This document shows positions 4,843 through 36,711 of a DNA stretch of 64,000 nucleotides, piece after piece. Within the stretch, counting starts at the first letter, position 1; every line of letters begins with the position of its first letter. A program made the translations under genes and the position numbers. The notes below the pieces were generated by a model. It saw only the letters and a list, made by a program, of their open reading frames with translations, had not been told where the DNA came from and made no database searches. Origin of the DNA: Candidatus Nitrosymbiomonas proteolyticus (GTDB taxonomy: Bacteria; Armatimonadota; Fimbriimonadia; Fimbriimonadales; Fimbriimonadaceae); the NCBI GenBank assembly GCA_017347465.1, contig AP021858.1, positions 1,116,001 to 1,180,000 on the forward strand. Reading direction: 5' to 3'.

Positions 4843-7203
4843 TCAGGACCAGTCGATCTCGTGGGAACCGGCGACCGAGCGCAGTCGGAGGTCCTCTAGG
4901 GGCGAATCGGCGTGCACCTCGAGGGAACCAGCGAGGAGCGTGAAAGTTCGGGGAGAGAGACGCGCGGTGCCGGCCGTGACACGGGCATCGACGAGAGGCG
5001 TAGCGGGTTCGAGCAACACCCGTTCGGAGCCGATGCTCCTCGCCCGCACCGCGGCCGCCGAAACCTCGATCTCTTTGGGTTCGCAGAGCAGCGTCCAGGC
5101 GACTTCGGGGCCTTCCGTCGCGGCGCACAGCACGGTCGTTGTTGGGTCGAGGCCCCCCAAATCGAGGCTTCCGACGACTCTTCGCTCGCTGGGTGCAAGT
5201 TCGGCAACGCGAAACACCTTATCCCGCAAGACGTCTCCTGTCGCCAGCGACACGGCGCGGAGAAAGGGGGTTCGCGCAATCGGCTCGCGGCCGTCGTTGA
5301 CCAGCACCAGGTGAGCGGTAGGGCCGTCGAGAACGAGACTCAGCAAGTGGGGCGCAAACAGCCGGGGCAGTTCCTCCGCAGCGGCCTTCCGCTCCCCGGC
5401 GAAGTCGATCAGCGACCAACTCAGCACGGGCCAGCAATCGTTGAGTTGCCAGATCAGCGCCCCCTTGCAGTGCTCGCTTCTGCGGAAGCGCTCGATCGCG
5501 CATCGCATGGCGTCGCGCTGGTTGAATTGGGTGCTGTACACGAAGTCGTCGAAGGTTTCGATCCGAGGGTAGTGAATCTCCACGAGTCCAAGGATCGTGT
5601 CGAGGCCCTTGCCGGTCTTGTCGTGCCACCTCACGACCTCGCCTCGCGGATCCCGGCCGCCATTCGGAAACGCAAGGTCCCAGCACCGCTCGGAGGGCGA
5701 CGAAGCAAACCCAAACTCGGAGCAAAACCTCGCTCCGGAGTCGGCATAGTGGACCCAATCGCCCCTGCCATGCCAGACATCCCAGTAGTGCTGGTCCCCG
5801 AAGCCTCCTTGGTTGCAGTCGCCTTCGCCTCCCCACGGACTTGTGGGAATGTAGGGCCTGTGTGGGTCCAATTCGGCCAGTGCTGCCGGGAGCACGTCGT
5901 CGTAAAGTCGCTCGCCGAAGTACCTTTCGGGCCTTCGGTCCTCGCCGCCCCACGCCTGCTCGTACATGGTCAGGTTCTCGTTGTTGCCGCACCATAGAGC
6001 GAGCGACGGGTGGTTGCGAAGCCGGACGATGGCAGATTCGGCTTCAGCGCGCGCGGACCGGGCGTACTCCCCATCGTCGGGATAGTAGCTGCAAGCATAC
6101 GGGAAGTCCTGCCAGATCAAGATTCCAAGCTCGTCGGCAACCTCATAGAAGGCGTCCGATTCATAGAGCCCCCCACCCCAAACGCGGAGCATGTTCATGC
6201 CCAGAGCCTGGGCTTCTTCGAGCTTGCCGCGAACCCGTCCGGGCGTAATTGCGCTGGGAAACGAGTGGTCGGGAATCCAGTTCGCGCCACGCGCCCAGAT
6301 CGGCTCTCCGTTGAGCACGAACTCGAAACTCTCGCCGAAGGAGTCGGGTTCGCGGCGGAGTTCGACTGTTCGCAGCCCGATGTTCTGCGAAAGGGTGTGC
6401 CCCCCGCACGTGCTTACCAGACGATACAGGGCCGGGTGGCCGAGGTCGTGGGTCCACCACAAGACCGGGTTCGAAATCGTGATCTCTCCGTCGCCTTCGA
6501 TCTCCTCCACCAGATCGCCCGCGGGGCCGAAGATCTGGTGCCGAGCCGATCCGCCGCCTTCCAGCGTGGAGTGAACGTCCAGAACGACTTGCCCGCTTGC
6601 GTGGCGTTGGGCGACCCGCACATCCCGGACTCGCTGTGCGTATTCCACAAGGCTGACCGGCTTCCAAATGCCACAAGAGATGAGCTTGGGGCCCCAGTCC
6701 CAGCCGAACATATACTGCGCTTTTCGGATGAAGCTCCGCGCGTCGAAGTTCGCAACCGTCGGCACGACCCCGTTTCTTCGAAAGTACTCTTCGCGGCGCG
6801 ACTTCCCTACTTGCTCGGCGGGGGAGAATTGCAGGTGCAGGCAGTTGCGTCCTTCGCGTAGCCTCCGGCTGACCTCAGCCTCGTGCGAAACGAACATATT
6901 GTCGAACGTGCCGATTTCCTCGCCGTTGAGAAGGACCCTGCAGACCGTATCGAGCCCTTCGAAGAAGAGCGCGCGATGGGGGAACTCCGCATCAGGGGCC
7001 CATTCGAATTTCGTACGATATTCCCAGGTCACCCGGTCGACCCAAGCCACCTCCCGTTCGTTTTCTCCCCAAAAAGGGTCGGGAATGCGGCCCAGGCGCA
7101 AGAGGTCGAGGTGGACGTGGCCAGGGACCTCCGCAGGTTGCCATTCCGGACGTTCCTCGCCTCCGCGGGCAAACTCCCAAGATTCGAGCCGAGTGACCCT
7201 CAC
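4843..7203 (-). CDS. Glycoside hydrolase family 2, beta-mannosidase type
   Basis: The 786-residue protein starts with GTG at 7203, one base after the stop of the GHL10 gene. It has the GH2 order: a jelly-roll sugar-binding domain with WEYRTKFEW, an immunoglobulin-like domain, then a TIM barrel. WCGNNE places the acid/base glutamate at residue 409. CSEFGF places the nucleophile at residue 496. MLRVWGGGLYESDAFYEVAD is a beta-mannosidase-like barrel signature. It should release terminal beta-linked mannose from oligosaccharides or glycans. No signal peptide is visible, so it is probably cytoplasmic. It closes the minus-strand group that begins with the lipoprotein at 12803. Confidence 0.92.
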   Translation of the reverse strand: MRVTRLESWEFARGGEERPEWQPAEVPGHVHLDLLRLGRIPDPFWGENEREVAWVDRVTWEYRTKFEWAPDAEFPHRALFFEGLDTVCRVLLNGEEIGTFDNMFVSHEAEVSRRLREGRNCLHLQFSPAEQVGKSRREEYFRRNGVVPTVANFDARSFIRKAQYMFGWDWGPKLISCGIWKPVSLVEYAQRVRDVRVAQRHASGQVVLDVHSTLEGGGSARHQIFGPAGDLVEEIEGDGEITISNPVLWWTHDLGHPALYRLVSTCGGHTLSQNIGLRTVELRREPDSFGESFEFVLNGEPIWARGANWIPDHSFPSAITPGRVRGKLEEAQALGMNMLRVWGGGLYESDAFYEVADELGILIWQDFPYACSYYPDDGEYARSARAEAESAIVRLRNHPSLALWCGNNENLTMYEQAWGGEDRRPERYFGERLYDDVLPAALAELDPHRPYIPTSPWGGEGDCNQGGFGDQHYWDVWHGRGDWVHYADSGARFCSEFGFASSPSERCWDLAFPNGGRDPRGEVVRWHDKTGKGLDTILGLVEIHYPRIETFDDFVYSTQFNQRDAMRCAIERFRRSEHCKGALIWQLNDCWPVLSWSLIDFAGERKAAAEELPRLFAPHLLSLVLDGPTAHLVLVNDGREPIARTPFLRAVSLATGDVLRDKVFRVAELAPSERRVVGSLDLGGLDPTTTVLCAATEGPEVAWTLLCEPKEIEVSAAAVRARSIGSERVLLEPATPLVDARVTAGTARLSPRTFTLLAGSLEVHADSPLEDLRLRSVAGSHEIDWS

Positions 7204-7204
7204 C

Positions 7205-9025
7205 TTACTGACCCGTTCCTAGCGCTCCCGCAGCGACGACCAGCGGCCCCGGCAACCGTCCTTTGGCCTCCTCCTCGGCGCGTCGGGACCGGATGCGCGA
7301 GAGTTCTTGAGGGTTCATGTGGGGAGCGCGCGCGGGGACCCGAAACGCCGCAGCCATCACGTCCCAGTACCGGTCGATGTCGTGCGAGAGGTCGAAGACC
7401 ATCACGCCTTGCGTCGAGGCGCACGCAGCCGAAAAGGCCCTTCCGAACGCCTGCGGGTCGGCGGGGTATTGCATCAGCATAATGCCGGCATAGGTCCACG
7501 CCCGGTCCCCCGCAATCTGGTTCGAGAGGTAGCCCGCGTACTCAACCGAATGGCCGATCGGAACGTCGGTCTCCATCGCTTCAAAAACGGTCGCAGTGGG
7601 ATAGTAGCAGCCCGTAATCAGCAGATCGAGGCTGTCGGCGAATCCGGAACGGCGGTATTCAGGGGTGGCGAACCAGAAACCGCCTTCGAAGCTCGGCGCA
7701 GCGTAGTTCGAGCCGATGCCGGCGTACTCCCCGTACCACGACCCCGCGTACACTCCGAAGACCGCTTGGGGCCTCTTCGACTTCACGATCGTTCGGGCCG
7801 CCCGCACGTACTCGGTGAGCTTTGCGGCCCGCCACTCCAACCATTTCTGGTAATAGGGACCTGGGCGAATCCCCCTCCGAAAGTCGGGCGTGAAGGTGTA
7901 CCGAAACACGTCGTTAGGCCAAGTGAGGCGTCGGCCCACCTCTCGCTCGAACTCCGCGCGGGTCGGCTCGCTGAAGTCGGCGTTCATTCCCGCGTACCGG
8001 AGCCGGTCGTCATAGAGCACGCCGTCGACGTCGTAGTTCGCAACTACCTCGCCAAGAACGGCAAGCGCCCGCTCGACCACTTTCGGGTGGGTGGGGTTCA
8101 TCATGAGCGGCACTTGCTGCCTGGGCCTCGCTGAAATTGGCACGAACACCGGGTCGGCGACGATTTCGAGTTTGCGTCCGGGCAACGCGTGCTGGCGCAG
8201 GAACTCGCCCGCGGGGCCGTTGCCCGCAAGAAGGCTCCCGCCTCGGGGGATGGTGGGCAGGGCCGAGCCGAAGCCCCCCGATTCGAACCCATCGACGATA
8301 CGGAAGTTGCGGTCGATCGTGACGGCGAAGTTCCCAGGTGTGGGTTGCGGCCGACGGGCAGAATCGTTGAAGACGTGCAGCGATTCGGGGATCAACTGCG
8401 GGGGATTGGCGGCTTCGGAAATGGGGAACCTATGCACCGCTGCGCCCGTGTCGATCCGCGCCATCGGCTGAAGCTCATAGAGCACGGTTTGAAGCTCCGG
8501 GGCCTCGTAGCCTGGGCCAACTCGAAAGTCGCGGTGCCCCTCGCTGAAGGCGTTGAGGCTGATGAGGAGGGAAAGCCCGTTCGCCCGCGCCTCGCGCACC
8601 ATCGCGCCCAATGGGTCGAAATCGGCCGGAAGTTCCTTGCCCTTCCACGCACGCAATTTCGGCGCGAGTTGGCTCGGATAGACGACTTGACCGCTGATGG
8701 GCTTCACGTCGAAAACGATCGTGTTGAATCCAACCTCGCGGACCTTCCTCACCAAGGAAGCGATCTTGTCGGCGGTGTTGTATCGGTCGATATTGGCCGT
8801 GCAATCAACCCAAAGCACCCGTCCCTGAAGGCCTGACGCCCGGGCCGCAAGCTGCGCGATGCCTTTTCCGTCGAGTTCTCGGTCGATCCAAATCGAAGGG
8901 ATGCCGGGCAGAGGGCGCGCGAGCACGAAGCGCGGCTGGTGGGGGGATTGAGGAGCCACCCAAGCGCCCATCGACAGAACCAGGAGCGAGAATACGCCAC
9001 GGACGGCGGCAAACCCATACCTCAC
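7205..9025 (-). CDS. GHL10 (DUF187) glycosyl-hydrolase-like secreted protein
   Basis: This protein has 606 residues. The first 25 or so form a signal peptide (VRGVFSLLVLSMGAWVAP). Next comes RVLWVDCTANIDRYNTADKI, then VGFNTIVFDVKPISGQVVYPS, the entry strands of the TIM barrel in the GHL10 (glycosyl hydrolase-like 10) family. Further barrel pieces include VDGVLYDDRLRYAG and AVFGVYAGSWYGEYAG. Members are predicted exported or cell-surface hydrolases acting on polysaccharides or peptidoglycan-like substrates; their exact reaction is poorly characterised. It lies 30 bases downstream of prcB and just before the beta-mannosidase, so it may be co-transcribed with the proteasome genes. Confidence 0.88.
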   Translation of the reverse strand: MRYGFAAVRGVFSLLVLSMGAWVAPQSPHQPRFVLARPLPGIPSIWIDRELDGKGIAQLAARASGLQGRVLWVDCTANIDRYNTADKIASLVRKVREVGFNTIVFDVKPISGQVVYPSQLAPKLRAWKGKELPADFDPLGAMVREARANGLSLLISLNAFSEGHRDFRVGPGYEAPELQTVLYELQPMARIDTGAAVHRFPISEAANPPQLIPESLHVFNDSARRPQPTPGNFAVTIDRNFRIVDGFESGGFGSALPTIPRGGSLLAGNGPAGEFLRQHALPGRKLEIVADPVFVPISARPRQQVPLMMNPTHPKVVERALAVLGEVVANYDVDGVLYDDRLRYAGMNADFSEPTRAEFEREVGRRLTWPNDVFRYTFTPDFRRGIRPGPYYQKWLEWRAAKLTEYVRAARTIVKSKRPQAVFGVYAGSWYGEYAGIGSNYAAPSFEGGFWFATPEYRRSGFADSLDLLITGCYYPTATVFEAMETDVPIGHSVEYAGYLSNQIAGDRAWTYAGIMLMQYPADPQAFGRAFSAACASTQGVMVFDLSHDIDRYWDVMAAAFRVPARAPHMNPQELSRIRSRRAEEEAKGRLPGPLVVAAGALGTGQ

Positions 9026-9055
9026 GCGTCTATTCTGACCGCTCGTGCGCGGGAG

Positions 9056-9823
9056 TTACGACCTTGCCGCGTTTTGGCCGAGTACGGCCTGTGCCGCAGC
9101 AGCGAGCCGATCGTCGGGGATCGGGCCTACCCCTTCGCGGCGCAAGACCCGCGCAGTAGGCAACACCCTGCGGAAGCCGCCAGTCGCCGAGTCCAACTCG
9201 GACGCGATGTCGAGCATGATCAGTCCGTCGGACAGAACGTCGTCGAGCGGCCTTGAATCCCAAGGTCCCTTGGTTCGGGTGAGGTACTCGAACACCCCTC
9301 GAATGCGCTCCGACCCCGATCCGGCGCAAGCGTATGCGTGGTTCTGGAACCGGGCGCCCGCGCCGTCAAAGAAGTAGAGGTGGAAGCTATCGCTCTCCGG
9401 GTCGTAAGCGGCGACGATGGGGAGGAACACCCCGATTCCCTGCATCGCGAGTTCAAAGTTCGAAGCCATCACGCGGGAGATCTCCTGGAGCTTGCCGTCG
9501 AGCGAGAGCTGGCCGAGGGTCAGTCTGCGGTAGTACTTGAATGAGTGCTTCAGGAATCGGGCGGATTCCACTGATTTCGCGAACGAACCGCTCAGGGCCA
9601 ACAAGGTGAAGTCGTCGATGGCCATGATCTTCTCTGCTTGGTCGTACATGACGAGGTTGCCCGCCGTCGCCCTGCGGTCGCCGAGCACGACCACACCTTC
9701 ATCGAACCTGAGAGCCAAAACCGTCGTACCGTGCGCCTGAAGCGCTTTGCTGGGGGCCGCGGCCCAATTCGCAGGCGGGAAGCCGACGAGTTCGGCAAAC
9801 GTTTGATGAATTGAACTTTTCAT
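9056..9823 (-). CDS. prcB: Proteasome beta subunit (Ntn hydrolase)
   Basis: This 255-residue protein carries a 32-residue propeptide ending in HG, so cleavage exposes Thr33 as the N-terminal nucleophile. Asp49 and Lys65 sit exactly at the mature positions 17 and 33 expected for the catalytic Asp and Lys (GDRRAT and AEKIMAI). LLALSGSFAKSVESARF is a proteasome-fold strand and helix. The subunit forms the proteolytic rings of a 20S particle. Its ATG overlaps the stop of the UBact gene by four bases (ATGA), which implies translational coupling. No alpha subunit gene follows; a GHL10 hydrolase does, so prcA must be elsewhere or absent. Confidence 0.93.
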   Translation of the reverse strand: MKSSIHQTFAELVGFPPANWAAAPSKALQAHGTTVLALRFDEGVVVLGDRRATAGNLVMYDQAEKIMAIDDFTLLALSGSFAKSVESARFLKHSFKYYRRLTLGQLSLDGKLQEISRVMASNFELAMQGIGVFLPIVAAYDPESDSFHLYFFDGAGARFQNHAYACAGSGSERIRGVFEYLTRTKGPWDSRPLDDVLSDGLIMLDIASELDSATGGFRRVLPTARVLRREGVGPIPDDRLAAAAQAVLGQNAARS

Positions 9824-10005
9824 TGTCCCGACCGCTGGCGGTACTTCTTGGCTTGGTCGGGATCGACCTTGCGGAGGCGCTTGATCAGTTCGTTGGGCCC
9901 GCCTGGTTTCGGCACGTTAGGGCGGCTTGGGCCTGTGTCGTCCTGCTTGGACTTGGGGGCTGGTCCCACTTTGCGGACCTTTCGTTCGTCTCCTCGAATC
10001 GTCAT
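9820..10005 (-). CDS. ubact: UBact/Pup-type protein modifier
   Basis: A 61-residue, highly charged, proline- and lysine-rich protein without hydrophobic segments, as expected for the disordered Pup-like modifiers. The C-terminus reads DPDQAKKYRQRSGQ. A terminal Arg-Ser/Thr-Gly-Glu/Gln is the signature described for UBact, the Pup relative of Armatimonadota, Nitrospirota and other lineages. The last codon is CAA (Gln), so deamidation to Glu would be needed before ligation to substrate lysines. The gene overlaps dop upstream and prcB downstream by four bases each. It should tag proteins for the proteasome encoded beside it. Its identity rests on the C-terminus and the context together. Confidence 0.9.
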   Translation of the reverse strand: MTIRGDERKVRKVGPAPKSKQDDTGPSRPNVPKPGGPNELIKRLRKVDPDQAKKYRQRSGQ

Positions 10006-11501
10006 GACTCCTCCGATAGTTGGGCTACAAGAGTACCTACGTCGGACAATCCATCGAGTTCCTGCGGATAGACTCGCTCGGGCGCAATCTCGAGTTCAAC
10101 GATCCCGCCTTCATGCCTGAGGGCTACCCGTCGCCAGTTCACCGCGACGAGGTTCGCCTTGTGATTGCGAACGAGAGCCGATCGAACGGCGGCCCTCGTC
10201 GGTTCAAGAACTCGCGCCAGCCTTTCTTCCAGTTCCGCGGGAGCGGGGCGTGGATCGACCGCGCCCATTTCCAGTAGAGCGAAGTAGAGCCCCTCGTCGG
10301 GGTCGATATTGTGGAATTCGAGGTCATAGGATTGCAGGTCTCGACTCTTCCATCCGCCGGGGAAATCGGTGGCGACCTGATCGAGAAGCAGCTTCTTTGC
10401 AGCCCAATCCGAACGCGCCGCGAAGCGCTCGAAGCACTCTTGGAGCGATTCGAGGTCCTTCTTCCAGGTTGGAATCAACGCGAGCATCTCGTTCGCGTCC
10501 TCGTCGCAGAACTCCTCGCCAGCGGTGGCCGCCTGCTCGAATGCCGCGAAATAGCCCAGCAAGACCTCGTAAGCGGAGGTGGTTCGGCCGCTTTCGAGCG
10601 GGATTTCGAAGCGGTGCGTTGCGTCTCGGCTCACCCCGTCCAGCGCGCGGGGGAGGTCGGAGATCGGAAACTTCGGAGCGCGACCCACTGCGGCGAGCAT
10701 CAGCGCGAGCTTGACGAGCCCGAACCTCGCGGCGATCGCGGCCGGGCTCAAGTTGGCGTCCCCGGCGATGACGTGGAGCCGAATCCATTGAGTCGGGTCG
10801 GCGTGAGGCTCGTCGCGCGTGTTGAACACGGGCCTTCGGTAGAGCGTATCGACGCTGCAAGAAGTCGTGAGGAAGTCCGCCCGCTGGCTGAGTTGATAGT
10901 CGCACGCCTTGCCCGACTCGCTTCCTACCTTCCCTGCGCCGCAAAGAACCGTTCTCGCCACGAGAATCGGAGACACGGCTGCGTAGAGTTCTTCGAACGC
11001 CAATGATCGGGGCGTGAGGTAGCTTTCGTGAGCGCCATAGGAAGCTCCGTGGTAGTCCGTGTTGTTCTTGTAGAGGCGAACGCGGCGTTCGGTCTGGGCC
11101 TCAAAGGCTCTAGCCGCCCTTTGAACCGCCCACTCTCCCGCCAGATCGTGACGGACCAATTCGCCGACGCTCCAACACTCCGGCGTGGCGTATTCGGGGT
11201 GTCCGTGGTCGTTGTAGAGCCTCGCGCCGTTCGGCAAGACCCGGTCGGCTCGCGATTCGGAGTCCCACGAGGAAGCGTCTTCACGCTCGAACTTCTGATC
11301 GTTCGGATCGACGCTAAGCTGGCCGACCTCGAATCCCCTGAGATCGCTACGGGGCGTCTCGTCCCGGTAGTCCCAACCTAAAAAGCACTCGCCCGGATAT
11401 GACCGGACGAGCGCTTTCGCATCTTCGACCTGATCCTCCGGCGAGCGACCTTCTACGAACAGTCCGTACTCGGTCTCTGCGCCCAGAAGGATCCGGTTCA
11501 T
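10002..11501 (-). CDS. dop: Dop/PafA-family protein, most like the deamidase/depupylase Dop
   Basis: The protein has 499 residues and the glutamine-synthetase-like fold of the Pup ligase family. LLGAETEYGLFVEG at the N-terminus provides nucleotide and metal-binding acids. In the core, QRADFLTTSCSVDTLYRRP, NTRDEPHAD and LHVIAGDANLS follow the Dop wording; PafA ligases usually have QRAEH and GDSN at these places. Dop converts the C-terminal Gln of the modifier to Glu and also removes it from substrates. That fits a modifier ending in Gln. A separate ligase is not present here, so a PafA paralogue is expected elsewhere. The ATG lies directly against the stop of the preceding lipoprotein gene. 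Confidence 0.9.
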   Translation of the reverse strand: MNRILLGAETEYGLFVEGRSPEDQVEDAKALVRSYPGECFLGWDYRDETPRSDLRGFEVGQLSVDPNDQKFEREDASSWDSESRADRVLPNGARLYNDHGHPEYATPECWSVGELVRHDLAGEWAVQRAARAFEAQTERRVRLYKNNTDYHGASYGAHESYLTPRSLAFEELYAAVSPILVARTVLCGAGKVGSESGKACDYQLSQRADFLTTSCSVDTLYRRPVFNTRDEPHADPTQWIRLHVIAGDANLSPAAIAARFGLVKLALMLAAVGRAPKFPISDLPRALDGVSRDATHRFEIPLESGRTTSAYEVLLGYFAAFEQAATAGEEFCDEDANEMLALIPTWKKDLESLQECFERFAARSDWAAKKLLLDQVATDFPGGWKSRDLQSYDLEFHNIDPDEGLYFALLEMGAVDPRPAPAELEERLARVLEPTRAAVRSALVRNHKANLVAVNWRRVALRHEGGIVELEIAPERVYPQELDGLSDVGTLVAQLSEES

Positions 11502-30468: not shown

Positions 30469-30639
30469 CTATTGGCGGAGTTGGCGTCGCCGCTTGGCGC
30501 GTCGGCGCTTCTCACTCGGCTTCTCATAAGCCGAATGCTCTTTCAGGTCCCGAAGGATGCCGCTCTGCTGAAGCTTGAGGTTGAAGCGCTTCAGCGCTGC
30601 ATCGATCGACTCGTTCGATTGGACGGTGACGTAAACCAA
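30469..30639 (-). CDS. rpsU: 30S ribosomal protein S21
   Basis: This short gene of 56 residues starts with TTG at 30639, eleven bases after a perfect GGAGGA. The protein begins MVYVTVQSNESIDAALKRFN, then LKLQQSGILRDLKEHSAYEK and a basic tail PSEKRRRAKRRRQLRQ. These are the conserved S21 features: the ESID-ALKRF segment, the YEKPSEKR motif and the arginine/lysine-rich end. S21 helps the small subunit pair with the mRNA leader. The codons are normal for the region. It lies between ybeY and the defence-like island, and marks the island's boundary. Confidence 0.93.
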   Translation of the reverse strand: MVYVTVQSNESIDAALKRFNLKLQQSGILRDLKEHSAYEKPSEKRRRAKRRRQLRQ

Positions 30640-30688: not shown

Positions 30689-30802
30689 ACTTGACAAGCG
30701 GGAGCCCGCCGGGGGGCGGGAAGCGGAGTTCTGGGGCGGCCTTATTCGGGCAGCACTTTCGGGCGCGCCAGGCTGTAGGTTGCGATGCTCTTTCCAAGGC
30801 CG

Positions 30803-31252
30803 TCACCTCGCCGGATTCATCATCGATCGAATAGTTGCGATAACTTCCTGGCCAGAGTTCTGCGCAAGTTCACATTCCCAAACAGCTACCACCTGGAAAC
30901 CCAGGCGCTCGAGCTCGCCACTAGTTCGGGTGTCTCTCTCCTTGTTTTGCTCAATCTTCGCGCGCCAGAAAGCGGCGTTGGTCTTCGGGGAAAGGTTACG
31001 TGGGCAGTGCGGGCAGCCGTGCCAGAAGCAGCCATGAACGAAGATCGCAAGCTTCGCCTTGGGGAAGACGACGTCGGGTGTTCCGGGCAAGGTGCGAACG
31101 TTCTTGCGGTAGCCCCGGAACCCGGCGGCCCAGAGCGCCTTTCGCAGCCTCTTCTCCGGCCTTGTGTCGGTGGAGGCGTTGCCCCGCATTGAGCGGCGCA
31201 CGGACTCGCGCACCTCGAACGTTTCGCGGAGCCCGTCGAGACGCCTATACAC
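30803..31252 (-). CDS. vsr: Vsr-type mismatch/patch-repair endonuclease
   Basis: I choose the GTG at 31252, overlapping the methyltransferase stop by 8 bases and giving 149 residues; ATG 31189 would cut the conserved first helix. The core RGNASTDTRPEKRLRKALW, then LPGTPDVVFPKAKLAIFVHG and the HGCFWHGCPHC motif at about residues 72-82, is that of Vsr endonucleases, with Asp in PDVVF as catalytic metal ligand. Vsr nicks beside T:G mismatches produced when 5-methylcytosine deaminates, or in some systems serves as the nuclease of a restriction unit. It is last in the GHKL, DUF2075, methyltransferase, Vsr row. It appears intact. Confidence 0.9.
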   Translation of the reverse strand: MYRRLDGLRETFEVRESVRRSMRGNASTDTRPEKRLRKALWAAGFRGYRKNVRTLPGTPDVVFPKAKLAIFVHGCFWHGCPHCPRNLSPKTNAAFWRAKIEQNKERDTRTSGELERLGFQVVAVWECELAQNSGQEVIATIRSMMNPAR

Positions 31253-32183
31253 CTGCGACCTCCCGAAGGGTCGTACCGAGCATCCCCGGCAACACCGCCA
31301 TCGCAGCGACGTAGCCGAGCGGCAATGGGACGGCGTCGCCGATCCACTTGGTGAGCAGCTTGCGGCTGAGTCCTTCGTCTTCTCCGAAGTCGTACCAAGC
31401 CGGGAACCCTTGCACGAACGCGGCTTCGGATGGGGTGAGCGTGCGCGGTTCGCAGGGGTGGACGAACCTTCCCCTTCCGGGCGTGAGGAATCCCGTGGTG
31501 ATGGTGGGAAACGGGCCATCCGGCCTGATCCTGCCGTAGACGGATTCGTAGGTGGTGCCATTTCGGTGGCACGGCGGGCGGAGGTGGAGGGGGAGGTCGT
31601 AAACGCCTTCGTTCTCCGCGTAGAACCGGAGGCGCCTCTGCGTGTCCTCATTGAACTCCGGAACCTCATTCAATAGGTTGGGCTTCGCGCGCCTTGGCAG
31701 ACGAGCAAGGAAGCTCGAAGAGGTCGGATGCGGTCCTCCGTAGATCTCACGCAGGTCGGATTCCGACGCGATTCCTGTTCGGCTTGCGAGCAGGAAGTGC
31801 CGTTTCCTCGTTTGGGGCCAACCGAAATCGGTTGCGGTAAGTACGAAATCCCGAACGATGTAACCGCTCGATTCGAGAAGCGCCTTCGCAACGCCCACCA
31901 CCTGAGAGCGAGCAATCCGAACCTCCGGAACGTTTTCGAAGATGATCGCGTGCGGGCGTAACGCCACCGCCATTGCGACCGCAGCAAAGTACAGCCCATT
32001 GCGGGCGTCGACCTTGCGCGTGGCGTTGTTGAAGTTGCTGTGTCCTTGGCACGGCGGCCCTCCAATGACAATGTCCACTTGCCCCTCTAGGTACGCGGCG
32101 GTATCTTCGAGTTGAGGATGTTTTGAAAAGCTCCACGTCTCGCGCTCCCGGCGGATATAGAACCCAGCATTCTGGCCGGTCAT
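31245..32183 (-). CDS. C5 cytosine DNA methyltransferase lacking the N-terminal SAM-binding motif
   Basis: This 312-residue frame has catalytic motif IV (GGPPCQGHSNFNN, Cys45), motif VI ENVPE at 83-87, motif VIII QTRKRHF at 124-130, the target-recognition region, motif IX (YGRIRPDGPFPTITT) and motif X (WIGDAVPLPLGY). It starts only about 35 residues before motif IV. The usual first 60-80 residues with motif I (the DxFxGxGG loop that binds SAM) are missing, and no other frame upstream supplies them. Its ATG overlaps the DUF2075 stop by four bases. As it stands the enzyme should not bind SAM well, so it may be inactive or rely on a partner. Confidence 0.85.
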   Translation of the reverse strand: MTGQNAGFYIRRERETWSFSKHPQLEDTAAYLEGQVDIVIGGPPCQGHSNFNNATRKVDARNGLYFAAVAMAVALRPHAIIFENVPEVRIARSQVVGVAKALLESSGYIVRDFVLTATDFGWPQTRKRHFLLASRTGIASESDLREIYGGPHPTSSSFLARLPRRAKPNLLNEVPEFNEDTQRRLRFYAENEGVYDLPLHLRPPCHRNGTTYESVYGRIRPDGPFPTITTGFLTPGRGRFVHPCEPRTLTPSEAAFVQGFPAWYDFGEDEGLSRKLLTKWIGDAVPLPLGYVAAMAVLPGMLGTTLREVAGV

Positions 32184-34144
32184 GCGAGAATCGGTATACC
32201 GATGCTGGCAAGGTATTCAAAGGTTGGATCGTAAAACGCCGGAGCCCTCGTCGCGTCCGAAGAGTCGCCCTCGGGCACCACGACAACCATCCCTTGCCGA
32301 GCTCTGGTGAGGAGCACTCGATAGGCATTCTTCTGGTATCTCATCCGGTCTTCGCTGCGGATTCGGTTCCAGCGGGTGCCAACGAAGTCGTAGTTCTGCC
32401 AGCCGGAGTCGCTGAAGCGAAAGTCGGCGTCCCAGACCACGCAGGTCCAGTCGAGTTCCAGCCCTTGAATGTGGAATTCGGTCGCAACATCTTCCAAATA
32501 GTACGAGGAGCGGACGTCATCTTTGCCGTCAAGGAACCAGTGGATTGGGTCGACCGGAGCGCGGACGTGGATCGCGTGGGGGCGCAGGCGCTCGGCTGCC
32601 GAGGAGACAAGGACGCCGTAGCGCTCGCTGCCGCGGGCTTGCGAGCGGATCCATTGCTTTGCTTTCTTTAGATCGCGCGTCAGCACGATTGGGAAGCTTT
32701 CGCGGCAAGCCTGCAATGCCTTGCTAGCTTCGTCCTCTTCGAACTCTAGCAGAGAGCGGACAAGGTGCGAGACGTTCTCGGCGCGGAACGAGCGCATGGA
32801 GGCGAAGAGGTGGAGCGACTCGTCAATCGTGACCCGTCCCTCGGTCTCGAGGTCCGTCAAAGTTGCCCCAGGGTCGAACTCCGGCTCCTCCAGTTGTGGG
32901 GATATATAGACATGCCAGGTGTCGAAGCTTCGAAGCGCCTCGAACCACTCCTGGATACCGCCCTCGCCGGTGTTGATCTCCTGACCGCCGCCGACGAGGC
33001 AGACGATCGTTGCCCAGTCGCCGTGCCGGTCGAGGCAGGAGATAAGGAATTCGGGTTCCGATTGGCTGAAGTTCTGGAGGTTCCGCTTGCGGCTCATGAA
33101 GGCGGCGGTCTGGGTGAGGTTCCAGGCGCGCTGTGCCTCATCGAAGAGCGCCACGTGCTCGATCGGCGGGCGTGGGTCGAGCAGGCAGTCGTCGCGGAAG
33201 TGGTGGACGTTCTGGATGAACTGCTTGACTCGCGACCGGGCTTCGCCTTTCTTGAGCTTCTCGCCGTTGTCGGCTGCCTGTCGTACGGCATCTCGGGCCA
33301 GCGCCTCGCGCAGGACGTTGACGAGGGGGCCGTTGCCGGAAAGAAAGACGCTGTAGAGGTCGCTATTCTGGTCGGTGTGGCTGTTGGCGATGTTCAGGCC
33401 GACCAGGGTTTTGCCGGCGCCCGGGACGCCGGTGACGAAGCAGATCGACTTTTGCGACCTGTCGCGGCTCCCTTCGATGATGCGCGCGACAGTGTCGGAG
33501 GTCGTCTTCAGGCTTTCCCCTGCAGCGTCACTGCGGGAGATGTCTTCAACGCTGTGGCCACGGAAGAGCGCTGCGGCGGCCTCGACGATGGTTGGCGTCG
33601 GGCTGTAGCGGCCGTTAAGCCAATCGTCGGCGTTGATGACTGGTCCGTCGGACAGGGAGATCGCTCCGGCGATGACTTCGCGTAGCTCTGAGGGCGGCAC
33701 CAGGAGCGGTTCGAGGCGGTCGGGGCGGCGGGTTAGGCGTCCGGAGCCGGGTTTGGCAGAGGTCGCTATCAGGATTGGGACGAGGACAAGATTGTGGCTC
33801 GGCTCGTGGAAGTAGTGCAGGTCGAGCGCGTAGTCATGGACCTGGTCGATGGCGGCCGTGTCGAAGGTGGTAGCGCCGGCCTTGAACTCGATTATGAACA
33901 CGCAAGGGCCGGTGATGACGATCGCGTCTACGCGTGAGCCCATGCGCGGAATGGCGTATTCAAGAATGACGTGACCGTCAAGTCCTCTGAGCTGGTTTCG
34001 CACGATCGCGAGCTGATGCAGCCACGCGTCGCGCTGCGTGGGAAGTAGCGCGAACTCGCCACTGCCGGTGAGCTCGCCGAGGATTGCGTGGTCGGCGGTG
34101 TTTTGCAGGTTCGCAATCGATGAGGCGAAGTAGTAGCGTCTCAA
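32180..34144 (-). CDS. DUF2075-family protein: N-terminal nuclease domain plus superfamily-1-type helicase
   Basis: This is a 654-residue protein starting with TTG at 34144. The N-terminus RRYYFASSIANLQ and AIPRMGSRVDAIV, with IIEFKAG (Asp73, Glu86, Lys88), is a PD-(D/E)xK-like nuclease as found ahead of DUF2075. Walker A GVPGAGKT is at 239-246 and Walker B DEAQ at 335-338. A late GLELDWTCVVWDADF and RVLLTRARQGMVVVVPEG are helicase motifs V and VI. Such proteins occur alone or in defence loci. It looks complete at both ends, unlike its two neighbours, and lies exactly between them. Confidence 0.88.
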   Translation of the reverse strand: MRRYYFASSIANLQNTADHAILGELTGSGEFALLPTQRDAWLHQLAIVRNQLRGLDGHVILEYAIPRMGSRVDAIVITGPCVFIIEFKAGATTFDTAAIDQVHDYALDLHYFHEPSHNLVLVPILIATSAKPGSGRLTRRPDRLEPLLVPPSELREVIAGAISLSDGPVINADDWLNGRYSPTPTIVEAAAALFRGHSVEDISRSDAAGESLKTTSDTVARIIEGSRDRSQKSICFVTGVPGAGKTLVGLNIANSHTDQNSDLYSVFLSGNGPLVNVLREALARDAVRQAADNGEKLKKGEARSRVKQFIQNVHHFRDDCLLDPRPPIEHVALFDEAQRAWNLTQTAAFMSRKRNLQNFSQSEPEFLISCLDRHGDWATIVCLVGGGQEINTGEGGIQEWFEALRSFDTWHVYISPQLEEPEFDPGATLTDLETEGRVTIDESLHLFASMRSFRAENVSHLVRSLLEFEEDEASKALQACRESFPIVLTRDLKKAKQWIRSQARGSERYGVLVSSAAERLRPHAIHVRAPVDPIHWFLDGKDDVRSSYYLEDVATEFHIQGLELDWTCVVWDADFRFSDSGWQNYDFVGTRWNRIRSEDRMRYQKNAYRVLLTRARQGMVVVVPEGDSSDATRAPAFYDPTFEYLASIGIPILA

Positions 34145-34147
34145 ATA

Positions 34148-34774
34148 CTATATTTGCCGCTTTCGCAGGCTGTAACGGTAGTCGTCGACGCAGATTCCGC
34201 CGACATCAAATGAGTCATTCCGGCCCAGCTTGTGGGGATCAAGATAGCTCGTCCCCCAAAGCTTGCTTCGGCCATCTGCCTCGTTAGTAACTGTATAAGC
34301 AAACACGGTGAAGAGCTGTGAATTGAGAACAGCGGCGGCCTTGCCGAATCCATAAGAGCCCCCGCCCGCGGGCTTCTCGCTCCCGCCTAGTCCGCCCATC
34401 AGGCGGTAGAAGTTGCTGCGCATATTGCGCATGTCGCCAGTCAGGCCCGTCGTGCCGTAATCGTGGATCAACAGGACGCGGCCCGAGCGCCGGGCCTCCT
34501 CGACCGGCAGGCGGAGGTCGGGCTCCACGTAGCTGTTCGCCGAGGCGTGATCCGAAAATGGCGGGCCGAGAAGCTCTTCAAGGTCGCAATCCTCCCGCAT
34601 CTCGAACTCTACGATGACCGAATCGTGAGCCTCATCGGCGGCGGCGTCCACCGCGTTCTGGATCGCCTCGCGCGCGAGCGCGAACTCTGGATCGAGGCGT
34701 TCGAACATCCGCCGAAACGCGTCGCCCCCTGCCGGTCGGTCCGGCCGTCGTTCCAGAAAAAGCCACTTCCCCAT
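34148..34774 (-). CDS. GHKL (Hsp90/MutL-like) ATPase, C-terminally truncated
   Basis: I use ATG 34774 (208 residues); a TTG at 34795 is possible. The ATPase pocket is intact: AREAIQNAVDAA (N box, Glu37 and Asn40), IHDYGTTGLTG (G1, 103-113) and GGGSYGFGKAAAV (G2, 137-149). The frame then stops at a TAG after RYSLRKRQI. Relatives found with Dcm and Vsr genes in predicted restriction systems are several hundred residues longer and carry a transducer and C-terminal domain. Here those parts are absent. The stop is followed three bases later, in the same frame, by the DUF2075 start. Confidence 0.8.
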   Translation of the reverse strand: MGKWLFLERRPDRPAGGDAFRRMFERLDPEFALAREAIQNAVDAAADEAHDSVIVEFEMREDCDLEELLGPPFSDHASANSYVEPDLRLPVEEARRSGRVLLIHDYGTTGLTGDMRNMRSNFYRLMGGLGGSEKPAGGGSYGFGKAAAVLNSQLFTVFAYTVTNEADGRSKLWGTSYLDPHKLGRNDSFDVGGICVDDYRYSLRKRQI

Positions 34775-35079
34775 TGCACCAACTACTCTGCTCAAGGCGT
34801 TTCCAAGCCAGTTAGTATCTCACATTGTCACTGGTAACGCAGTGGTTTCTTATCAAGGTTGCTGAAGAGGAAGACTTAAAGGAAACCGAGTAGCGCCCGC
34901 GCCGTATCTCGCCTCGTTCTTGTCCTCCACGGTCTCCGCCACGGCCTTTGCGGCGGTGTGGTGCCAGAGCCGACGAGTTGGATGAGATGCCGGGCAAACG
35001 CGAGCTCGGTGAGGATGACTCGGATGAGAGCCTGGAGTCTCGACGGAAGTTGGCGCGGGCGGCGGGGCAGGGCGAGGCG
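34775..35079. other. Intergenic region at the edge of the island
   Basis: This 305-base stretch lies upstream of the GHKL gene and downstream of the 2TM gene. No open frame here has convincing protein character on either strand. It is less GC-rich near 34810-34880, a plausible place for the island's promoter. I find no direct repeat, tRNA fragment or inverted terminal repeat that would mark an insertion site. Confidence 0.5.
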
Positions 35080-35766
35080 TCACTCTTCCATCTCTTCCAA
35101 GTACTCTTCGACCACTTGCTTGGCCTCCGGCAGGGAGAGGCCGGTTTTGGCGCGCAGGTGCTCGATGGCCTCCATCTTGCGCTGTTCGATATGGGCCTTG
35201 CGCTCTTGCCGGAGTGCGCGGCGCGCGGCGCGGGAGCTTCGATTCAGGGCGTCTTCCGAGAGGGTGGTACCCAAGCTGCCCAACCCAACTCCCGCGATGA
35301 TCCCGGCGGCAACGTCGTCGATCACGCCGCTTTCCCTTAGGGACTTCTTGGCTCGCCAGCGCCGGAACTCCTTCTCATAGTCGTCGCTGCCTTTGGCGAA
35401 GGTCATCCACGCGTGGGCGATCATGCCAAGCCCCCACCCAATCACCGGCCAATAGGCCCAGTCCAGGCCGCCGTCCCCTCGAAGGTCGAGGAACACCAGT
35501 CCGGTATTGACGAGCAAGTAGGTCGAGAGGTGAGTCCAGAACTCGTGCTTGACGTGCTTGTCGTAGTGGAGACGTTCTTTGACCTCGGCGGACCGCTCGC
35601 GGTATTCGGTTTCCGCCTCTTGGACGGCTTCGGGGGAGATTCCCGCTTCGGCGGCCGCGGCGAGGAGTTGTTCCCTCGACATCGCTCCTGAGGCGGATCT
35701 GCGGGCTGCCAGCAGGAGGATCTGCTCGGCTTCGTCCTCTTGAAAGAACTGTTGCTCGGATGGCAC
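35080..35766 (-). CDS. 2TM-domain membrane protein
   Basis: I place the start at GTG 35766 (228 residues). The frame could extend to 36345, but that part lies antisense to a PEP-CTERM gene and is not protein-like. Residues 30-60 (SREQLLAAAAEAGISPEAVQ) are a helical pair typical at the front of these proteins. Two membrane helices follow (FWTHLSTYLLVNTGLVFLDL and YWPVIGWGLGMIAHAWMTF) with FRRWRAKKS after them, the 2TM pattern. The C-terminus is a charged helical domain. A TACAAT sequence lies just before the GTG and no ribosome-binding site is seen, so the message may be leaderless. Function unknown. Confidence 0.8.
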   Translation of the reverse strand: MPSEQQFFQEDEAEQILLLAARRSASGAMSREQLLAAAAEAGISPEAVQEAETEYRERSAEVKERLHYDKHVKHEFWTHLSTYLLVNTGLVFLDLRGDGGLDWAYWPVIGWGLGMIAHAWMTFAKGSDDYEKEFRRWRAKKSLRESGVIDDVAAGIIAGVGLGSLGTTLSEDALNRSSRAARRALRQERKAHIEQRKMEAIEHLRAKTGLSLPEAKQVVEEYLEEMEE

Positions 35767-35913
35767 GAGGGGATTGTAGCGCGGATGCGGCTGGGTGCAG
35801 CCGCAGAGGTTCTGCGGAACGGTACTTTTGCGGTTCGCGCGGAGATTCTCGTCACAGAACCACTGGTTCGGGTCAATAGAAGAATAGCGGGATATTTCTT
35901 GTAAGGAACAACT

Positions 35914-36552
35914 ATGAAGAGACTTAGCATCATTGTTTTGGCGGGGATCGCCGCTTCGGTTAGCGCCCAGGTAGGCACGACTGGGGTTTTTGCGGGCGCG
36001 CTCGGGGAGTCGTTCGAAGGTTTCGATACTTACGGCGAAGGTGGCTTCCACTACGAGCCTGAGCCGATCTCGATTATGGGCGGGGCTGCCACGCTGGAAA
36101 CTGACCAGAACGTGCTCGCCATTTGGGAGAACAGTTGGGACACCTTTGGACTCGGAACTGCCGGCGATGCGATCGCCGCGGACGGAGTGCAAGGCGCTGG
36201 GGTCGATGCGAGCGATGACTCGATGACGTTCACGTTTAGCGGGGGCGGAGTCACGGCTTTCGGCGGCTACTGGGGTGGCGCGACCAGCTTCGGAGACCCA
36301 CTGCCGCTTGATGTCACGGTCACGCTGGCCGACTCTTCCGTGCATACCTTTGTTTTTAGCTACGAAAGCTCAAACGGCGGCAACCTGATCTGGCAAGGTT
36401 GGTCGACGTCCGGCGCGGGCATAACGGTCGTTGAGGTTGCTGGGGCTTATGTAGTGGCCGACGACCTGCGGGCGAACCCGGTTCCGGAACCCGCGTCGAT
36501 GTCGGTTCTTGGACTTGGCGCGGCCGCTCTCGTCCGACGCCGAAGAAGGTAG
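35914..36552 (+). CDS. Secreted PEP-CTERM protein
   Basis: This 212-residue protein has a signal peptide (MKRLSIIVLAGIAASVSAQ) and a beta-rich body with GDSMTFTFSGGG-like strands and FVFSYESSNGGNLIWQGW. It ends with VPEPASMSVLGLGAAALVRR, the PEP-CTERM signal: Val-Pro-Glu-Pro, a hydrophobic helix and an arginine tail. Proteins with this signal are sorted and processed at the cell surface in bacteria that make an exosortase and extracellular polymer. No exosortase gene is in the window. The ribosome-binding site is TAAGGA. A terminator hairpin lies 36 bases downstream. Function unknown. Confidence 0.87.
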   Translation: MKRLSIIVLAGIAASVSAQVGTTGVFAGALGESFEGFDTYGEGGFHYEPEPISIMGGAATLETDQNVLAIWENSWDTFGLGTAGDAIAADGVQGAGVDASDDSMTFTFSGGGVTAFGGYWGGATSFGDPLPLDVTVTLADSSVHTFVFSYESSNGGNLIWQGWSTSGAGITVVEVAGAYVVADDLRANPVPEPASMSVLGLGAAALVRRRRR

Positions 36553-36587
36553 TTCGTCTGGCGGGCAGGAATCTGCCACACGCATTG

Positions 36588-36615
36588 AGGCCCTCGCACC
36601 TGCGGGGGCCTTTAG
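36588..36615 (+). terminator. Hairpin terminator after the PEP-CTERM gene
   Basis: AGGCCCTCGC at 36588-36597 pairs with GCGGGGGCCT at 36602-36611 around an ACCT loop; one pair is G-U. A short T run follows. The position, 36 bases after the stop codon, fits an intrinsic terminator with a weak tail. Confidence 0.6.
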
Positions 36616-36711
36616 CTTGGGCTCACCCCAGCTCGAGCGAATCTGAGCCTGCGCGGCCAGTTAGCATTGTGCGAATGGGAGCGGGCGTCATTGCTGACGC
36701 TTCTGTGATCT

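Follow-up and report, generated by a model that had tools for sequence, protein, structure and literature searches.

A complete PDC-S41 nuclease-helicase gene in the apparent remains of an M33-Dcm-Vsr operon at a probable defence-gene turnover site

Four tightly packed minus-strand genes in Candidatus Nitrosymbiomonas proteolyticus raise the question of whether their close spacing marks one defence system. They lie in the window, by which we mean the whole stretch of 64,000 nucleotides analysed, between rpsU (start near 30639) and a 2TM gene (near 35080). ORF calls and the sequence agree with the preliminary description on this layout of four same-strand genes with junctions of a few bases. 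In the order of transcription these are a GHKL fragment, S41 (DUF2075/SLFN-g3), a C5 methyltransferase (MTase) fragment and Vsr, spaced by +3, −4 and −8 nt. The same description took the set for a compact four-gene version of a known type of restriction system. Two of the four, the GHKL and MTase genes, prove to be cut short where they meet the DUF2075 gene. At a probability of roughly 0.83, we read the locus as a turnover site that holds an inactivated M33-Dcm-Vsr operon, its middle replaced by a presumably stand-alone S41 gene. The features are as follows; L133 and L089 are intact relatives described below.

30803..31252, minus strand: vsr, 149 aa, GTG start, apparently intact (Pfam Vsr 8.2e-25; 46% identity to the L133 Vsr)
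31245..32183, minus strand: 3' fragment of a C5-cytosine MTase gene, 312 aa (alignment to L133 and L089)
32159..32183, minus strand: junction 2, where the S41 stop (32182-32180) overlaps the ATG of the MTase fragment (32183) (sequence)
32180..34144, minus strand: PDC-S41, complete, 654 aa, TTG start (PADLOC, Pfam, invariant motifs, model)
34141..34150, minus strand: junction 1, with the GHKL stop (34150-34148), 3 nt and the S41 TTG (34144) (sequence)
34148..34795, minus strand: GHKL fragment, 5' part of a PDC-M33A-type gene, 215 aa (PADLOC, alignment to L133)
30738..35066, no strand: strain-specific segment (comparison with a same-species genome)

The S41 gene is whole. It matches the PADLOC profile PDC-S41 at 4e-271 over positions 1-653 of 657, a full-length match, and Pfam SLFN-g3_helicase at 2e-80. 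The protein consists of an N-terminal PD-(D/E)XK nuclease and a Schlafen-group-3/DUF2075 SF1 helicase, and the PD-(D/E)XK motif bears out the earlier suggestion that the DUF2075 protein carries a nuclease domain of its own. The residues that are invariant in 37 sequences are all present: E62, D73, E86-x-K88, the Walker A GVPGAGKT and DEAQR. Both ends of the protein, RRYYFASSI and FEYLASIGIPILA, coincide with the natural termini of relatives. The helicase part of the predicted model (pLDDT 86) superposes on UvrD (Z 18.8, rmsd 4.0, 325 residues aligned) and on SLFN11 (Z 17.8, rmsd 3.9, 280 aligned), a comparison that bears on the helicase part and barely covers the nuclease-domain fold. Weak PDB matches of the S41 profile, mostly to a potassium-channel construct, were judged to be chance. 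Searched against phages and plasmids, S41 matched one phage record and four plasmids. A literature search found no experimental record of S41 and no paper on PDC-S41, PDC-M33 or DUF6339; DUF2075 appears there only in passing, in unrelated papers.

The two flanking genes had been assigned to the right families, GHKL and C5 MTase, but their truncation had been missed. The GHKL ORF extends to 34795, the start chosen earlier being an internal ATG at 34774. It matches PADLOC PDC-M33A at 2.8e-20, with the best stretch at profile positions 107-189 of 627, and shares 31.5% identity with the intact L133 GHKL protein (600 aa) over residues 3-196 of the latter; Pfam gave no match for this ORF. The N, G1 and G2 boxes are kept (RE..QN..D, D.GTTGL and GGGSYGFGK). 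Relatives in the family have about 590-660 aa, and the window's 215 aa represent the first ~195-205 residues of a protein of about 600. The rest is gone, and the full-length GHKL protein A of a PDC-M33 operon is absent from the window. Among the genomes of the phylum the fragment's sole match is the L089 operon. Its predicted structure has a mean pLDDT of 38, from an alignment of four sequences, and a PDB sequence search with the M33A profile returned no match.

On the other side of S41, the MTase has lost its beginning. The Pfam DNA_methylase match (2e-31) begins only at position 48 of the family profile, and the best PADLOC C5 MTase profile is matched only from position 79 of 368. By blastp, residues 8-298 align with residues 130-431 of the 434-aa MTase of L133 at 44.6% identity; identity to the L089 MTase is 42.8%, and these two M33 operons hold the closest MTases among all sequences compared. 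Motifs IV (PPCQ), VI (ENV), VIII (QTRKR), IX and X are kept. About 120 N-terminal residues are missing, including motif I, which binds SAM and reads VDAFCGSGG in a relative, and the window therefore has no C5 MTase with motifs I-X such as belongs to a PDC-M33 operon. We considered whether the GDAVP of motif X is a mark of decay and rejected this, as the intact L133 enzyme has the same residues. The 2.81-Mb genome contains no further C5 MTase match, so that no second polypeptide able to complement a split enzyme is seen. Viral contigs searched for the MTase held no relative.

Vsr follows the MTase directly, as it would in a PDC-M33 operon, and contains the core motif LPGTPDVVF...FVHGCFWH. The ORF caller gives it 288 aa, overlapping the MTase. 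Since the domain lies within the final 130 residues and a GTG start codon at 31252 overlaps the stop codon of the MTase, the likely size of Vsr is 149 aa.

What the whole operon looks like can be seen in L133, from a Rhodanobacteraceae MAG (genome G303), where GHKL, B, DUF6339, C5 MTase and Vsr are intact and contiguous at 5607-10848:

5607-7409: GHKL, 600 aa
7406-8332: B, 308 aa
8338-9078: C/DUF6339, 246 aa
9079-10383: C5 MTase, 434 aa
10393-10848: Vsr, 151 aa

L089 (genome G097), from the window genome's own family, has, in succession, GHKL, a 272-aa protein, DUF6339 (PDC-M33C) and an MTase of 391 aa that includes motif I; a Vsr was looked for at this operon and not found. A, B and C also occur together on two plasmids, one from Rhizobium, where they come after a Z1-domain gene, and one from Deinococcus, with MTase-Vsr nearby, and in a viral contig as well. 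Searched against plasmids, the DUF6339 protein gave no match. Some 3.3 kb of the L133 operon, between GHKL residue ~196-200 and MTase residue ~125-130, have no counterpart in the window, where the 1.97-kb S41 gene stands instead. With tblastn over window positions 30700-35100 we found no B above chance and no C, GHKL C-terminus or MTase N-terminus. The genome is also without a PF19866 (DUF6339) match, a weak test given that control genomes were silent too.

The junctions are tight on both sides of S41. At junction 1, similarity to GHKL proteins ends ~10-20 codons before the GHKL stop and similarity to S41 begins at the TTG. At junction 2, S41 and the MTase fragment overlap by 4 nt (ATGA), and similarity to intact MTases begins at codon 8. 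The MTase and Vsr overlap by 8 nt, GTGTATAG. Neither fragment has internal stops or frameshifts. Junctions that so resemble ordinary operon overlaps could reflect a recent event or a retained function.

If function was retained, the four genes might be a genuine, rewired system: the GHKL domain, S41, an MTase without its SAM site and the Vsr nickase would come together in a new complex to sense and cut foreign DNA, with the MTase reading either a DNA sequence or its methylation. In favour of this, none of the four ORFs is interrupted, their spacing and overlaps are typical of co-translated genes, and the Vsr catalytic core, the target-recognition part of the MTase and the GHKL boxes remain. 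The four families, whose joint recurrence the preliminary description had made the test of its proposal, were not found together again in the loci and genomes compared. We compared 94 S41 loci besides the window, 80 across bacteria and 14 from the phylum, and an M33 A, B or C gene was present in 0 of the 94. An MTase piece adjoins S41 in one of them and belongs to a different MTase family. Within the phylum, 2 of 291 genomes have M33A and 22 have S41, and only the window's genome has both; M33A was found in 1 of 50 other S41 genomes, away from S41. Furthermore, the truncation points of the two fragments coincide with the two ends of S41 while their relatives are full length, and the S5 domain that is combined with GHKL in such ATPases (PMC2292703) is missing here. 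We therefore hold a rewired system to be very improbable. The earlier proposal of a set that senses or cuts unmodified foreign DNA is likewise unsupported: with two of its genes truncated, it is unlikely that the four are adapted to one another so as to methylate self and cut non-self, or that they work as a unit.

An arrangement unique in the data searched could also be an artefact, with an M33 operon joined to S41 from another organism during assembly or binning. The source genome is a single 2.81-Mb contig, 99% complete and 0.06% contaminated, and GC is alike in the fragments, S41 and the flanks (0.61-0.64). Two neat start/stop-overlap junctions would, moreover, both have to be artefacts. 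A chimera of this kind is hardly credible.

Strain comparison places the segment at a variable site. In a same-species genome (G135), the flanks are 96-97% identical up to 30737 and from 35067, and the site is occupied by a 6.7-kb type III R-M system composed of Res, a RhuM-like protein (PDC-S05) and Mod. At that same chromosomal site in a same-species genome, L092 3782-10381 shows the RhuM-like gene lying between Res and Mod. A congener (G136) has neither insert, and its rpsU is followed within ~50 bp by the gene found at 36.7 kb in the window. Because G135 has the type III system there and G136 neither insert, we consider the rpsU/2TM site to be one of defence-gene turnover. The assignment of the region to defence stands. 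Beside the site there is a second small indel: window 35792-36710, with a PEP-CTERM-type protein gene at 35914-36552, is absent from G135.

Taken together, these results favour the replacement of an operon's middle. A PDC-M33 operon of five genes (A, B, C, C5 MTase, Vsr), MORC-like and of restriction type, would have been present at the site or have come into it, and its middle would then have been lost, from residue ~200 of A through residue ~125 of the MTase. A complete S41 gene would have come to lie in the gap in the same direction, possibly coupled translationally to both flanking fragments. Because no intact M33 operon was found at this site, we infer replacement, rather than de novo assembly, from relatives at 31-46% protein identity. 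The old operon would be dead as a system, B, C and the C-terminal part of the ATPase being gone. No 5mC self-mark is to be expected from an MTase without its SAM-binding motif, and with B, C, the GHKL C-terminal part and the SAM site all absent, family knowledge gives no reason to expect either ATP-driven restriction or self-methylation from it. By the same knowledge, S41 is probably the working part, a predicted one-gene nuclease-helicase that, if expressed and active, might alone unwind and cut invading nucleic acid. Vsr is perhaps still working, although with its partner MTase gone no 5mC of its own system is known for it to repair.

The loss could have come about in steps, with S41 inserted beside or inside the M33-Dcm-Vsr operon and the flanks lost later by separate deletions. 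This variant differs from a direct replacement in history, not in function. It would explain loss on both sides and accords with other genomes in which S41 lies next to broken pieces of vsr or of an MTase gene, but it requires that the two deletions each ended only a few bases from the start or the stop codon of S41. We regard such a history as possible though unlikely.

The broken vsr pieces deserve a closer look. Within 500 bp of S41 they are found in 5 of the 94 loci against 0.37 expected from the density further out (exploratory Poisson P 5e-5; conditional binomial P 4e-4), a count that is a lead only, as the 500-bp limit was set post hoc and one of the far fragments is marginal. The truncated or stop-bearing fragments beside S41 are these:

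L122 1-116
L007 384-476
L039 2464-2535
L045 7495-7830
L026 3550-3753

In L122, S41 is followed by a vsr without its first ~39 residues, and in L007 the first 31 residues of a vsr precede S41. These cases raise the idea that S41 genes have a preference for landing in loci concerned with 5-methylcytosine (vsr, Dcm, M33) and break them. We consider it rather doubtful; were it true, no case would be clearer than the window, and S41 would be a gene-sized module displacing 5-methylcytosine-handling systems.

Other neighbourhoods of S41 vary. In a Prevotellaceae locus (L075 8001-12325), an N-terminal fragment of a C5 MTase starts 5 bp beyond S41, and after it come a nuclease-like ORF of 171 aa and a C-terminal fragment of an MTase. 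A 1558-aa gene lies closely downstream of S41 in L070, L072 and L079, overlapping it by 4 bp at two of these loci, and is a recurring partner in rumen Bacteroidales. A family of ~110-130 aa (IRLNYLYRDSGNYKKFGS...) recurs beside S41 in L007, L013, L027, L031 and L083. At other loci S41 adjoins tRNA-like genes, as judged from the translated pattern. S41 relatives as a whole share no common partner, but a few have tight downstream genes; the window copy is tightly flanked by gene fragments.

The locus illustrates that genes lying side by side with operon-like overlaps do not amount to a system if two of them are stumps, and it corrects a call that was plausible but wrong. It also offers, at single-gene resolution, a case of one defence gene in the place of another defence operon's core at a turnover site. 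For experiments, the intact five-gene GHKL-B-DUF6339-Dcm-Vsr operon of L133 is the proper test object.

Among known systems, the MORC/paraMORC restriction-modification context with GHKL, Dcm and Vsr was described by Iyer, Abhiman and Aravind in 2008 (PMC2292703). The GHKL proteins there carry an S5 domain and their usual partner is an SFII helicase (PMC2292703). The ancestry that the preliminary description drew from this context holds, in that the window likewise combines a GHKL protein with Dcm and Vsr; it lacks the S5 region, however, its helicase is SF1 (UvrD/SLFN11-like) and not SFII, and the locus falls outside that class. As a site, it resembles the defence hotspots between core genes of Pseudomonas aeruginosa (PMC10250203) in having the same core flanks with defence cargo that differs by strain. 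Unlike those hotspots, it lies at another place, rpsU and the 2TM gene, and the comparison covers three genomes of the genus. The likeness to PDC-M33 (A, GHKL; B; C, DUF6339) with MTase and Vsr lies in the same order and direction at 31-46% protein identity, whereas B, C, the C-terminal two thirds of A and the MTase N-terminus, motif I included, are gone and S41 is there instead. To the single-gene PADLOC candidate PDC-S41 the likeness is full, in length, in all catalytic motifs and in a start and stop placed as in relatives. Unlike the PDC-S41 genes of the 94 other loci, which are without M33 neighbours, the window copy sits tight inside the remains of another defence operon.
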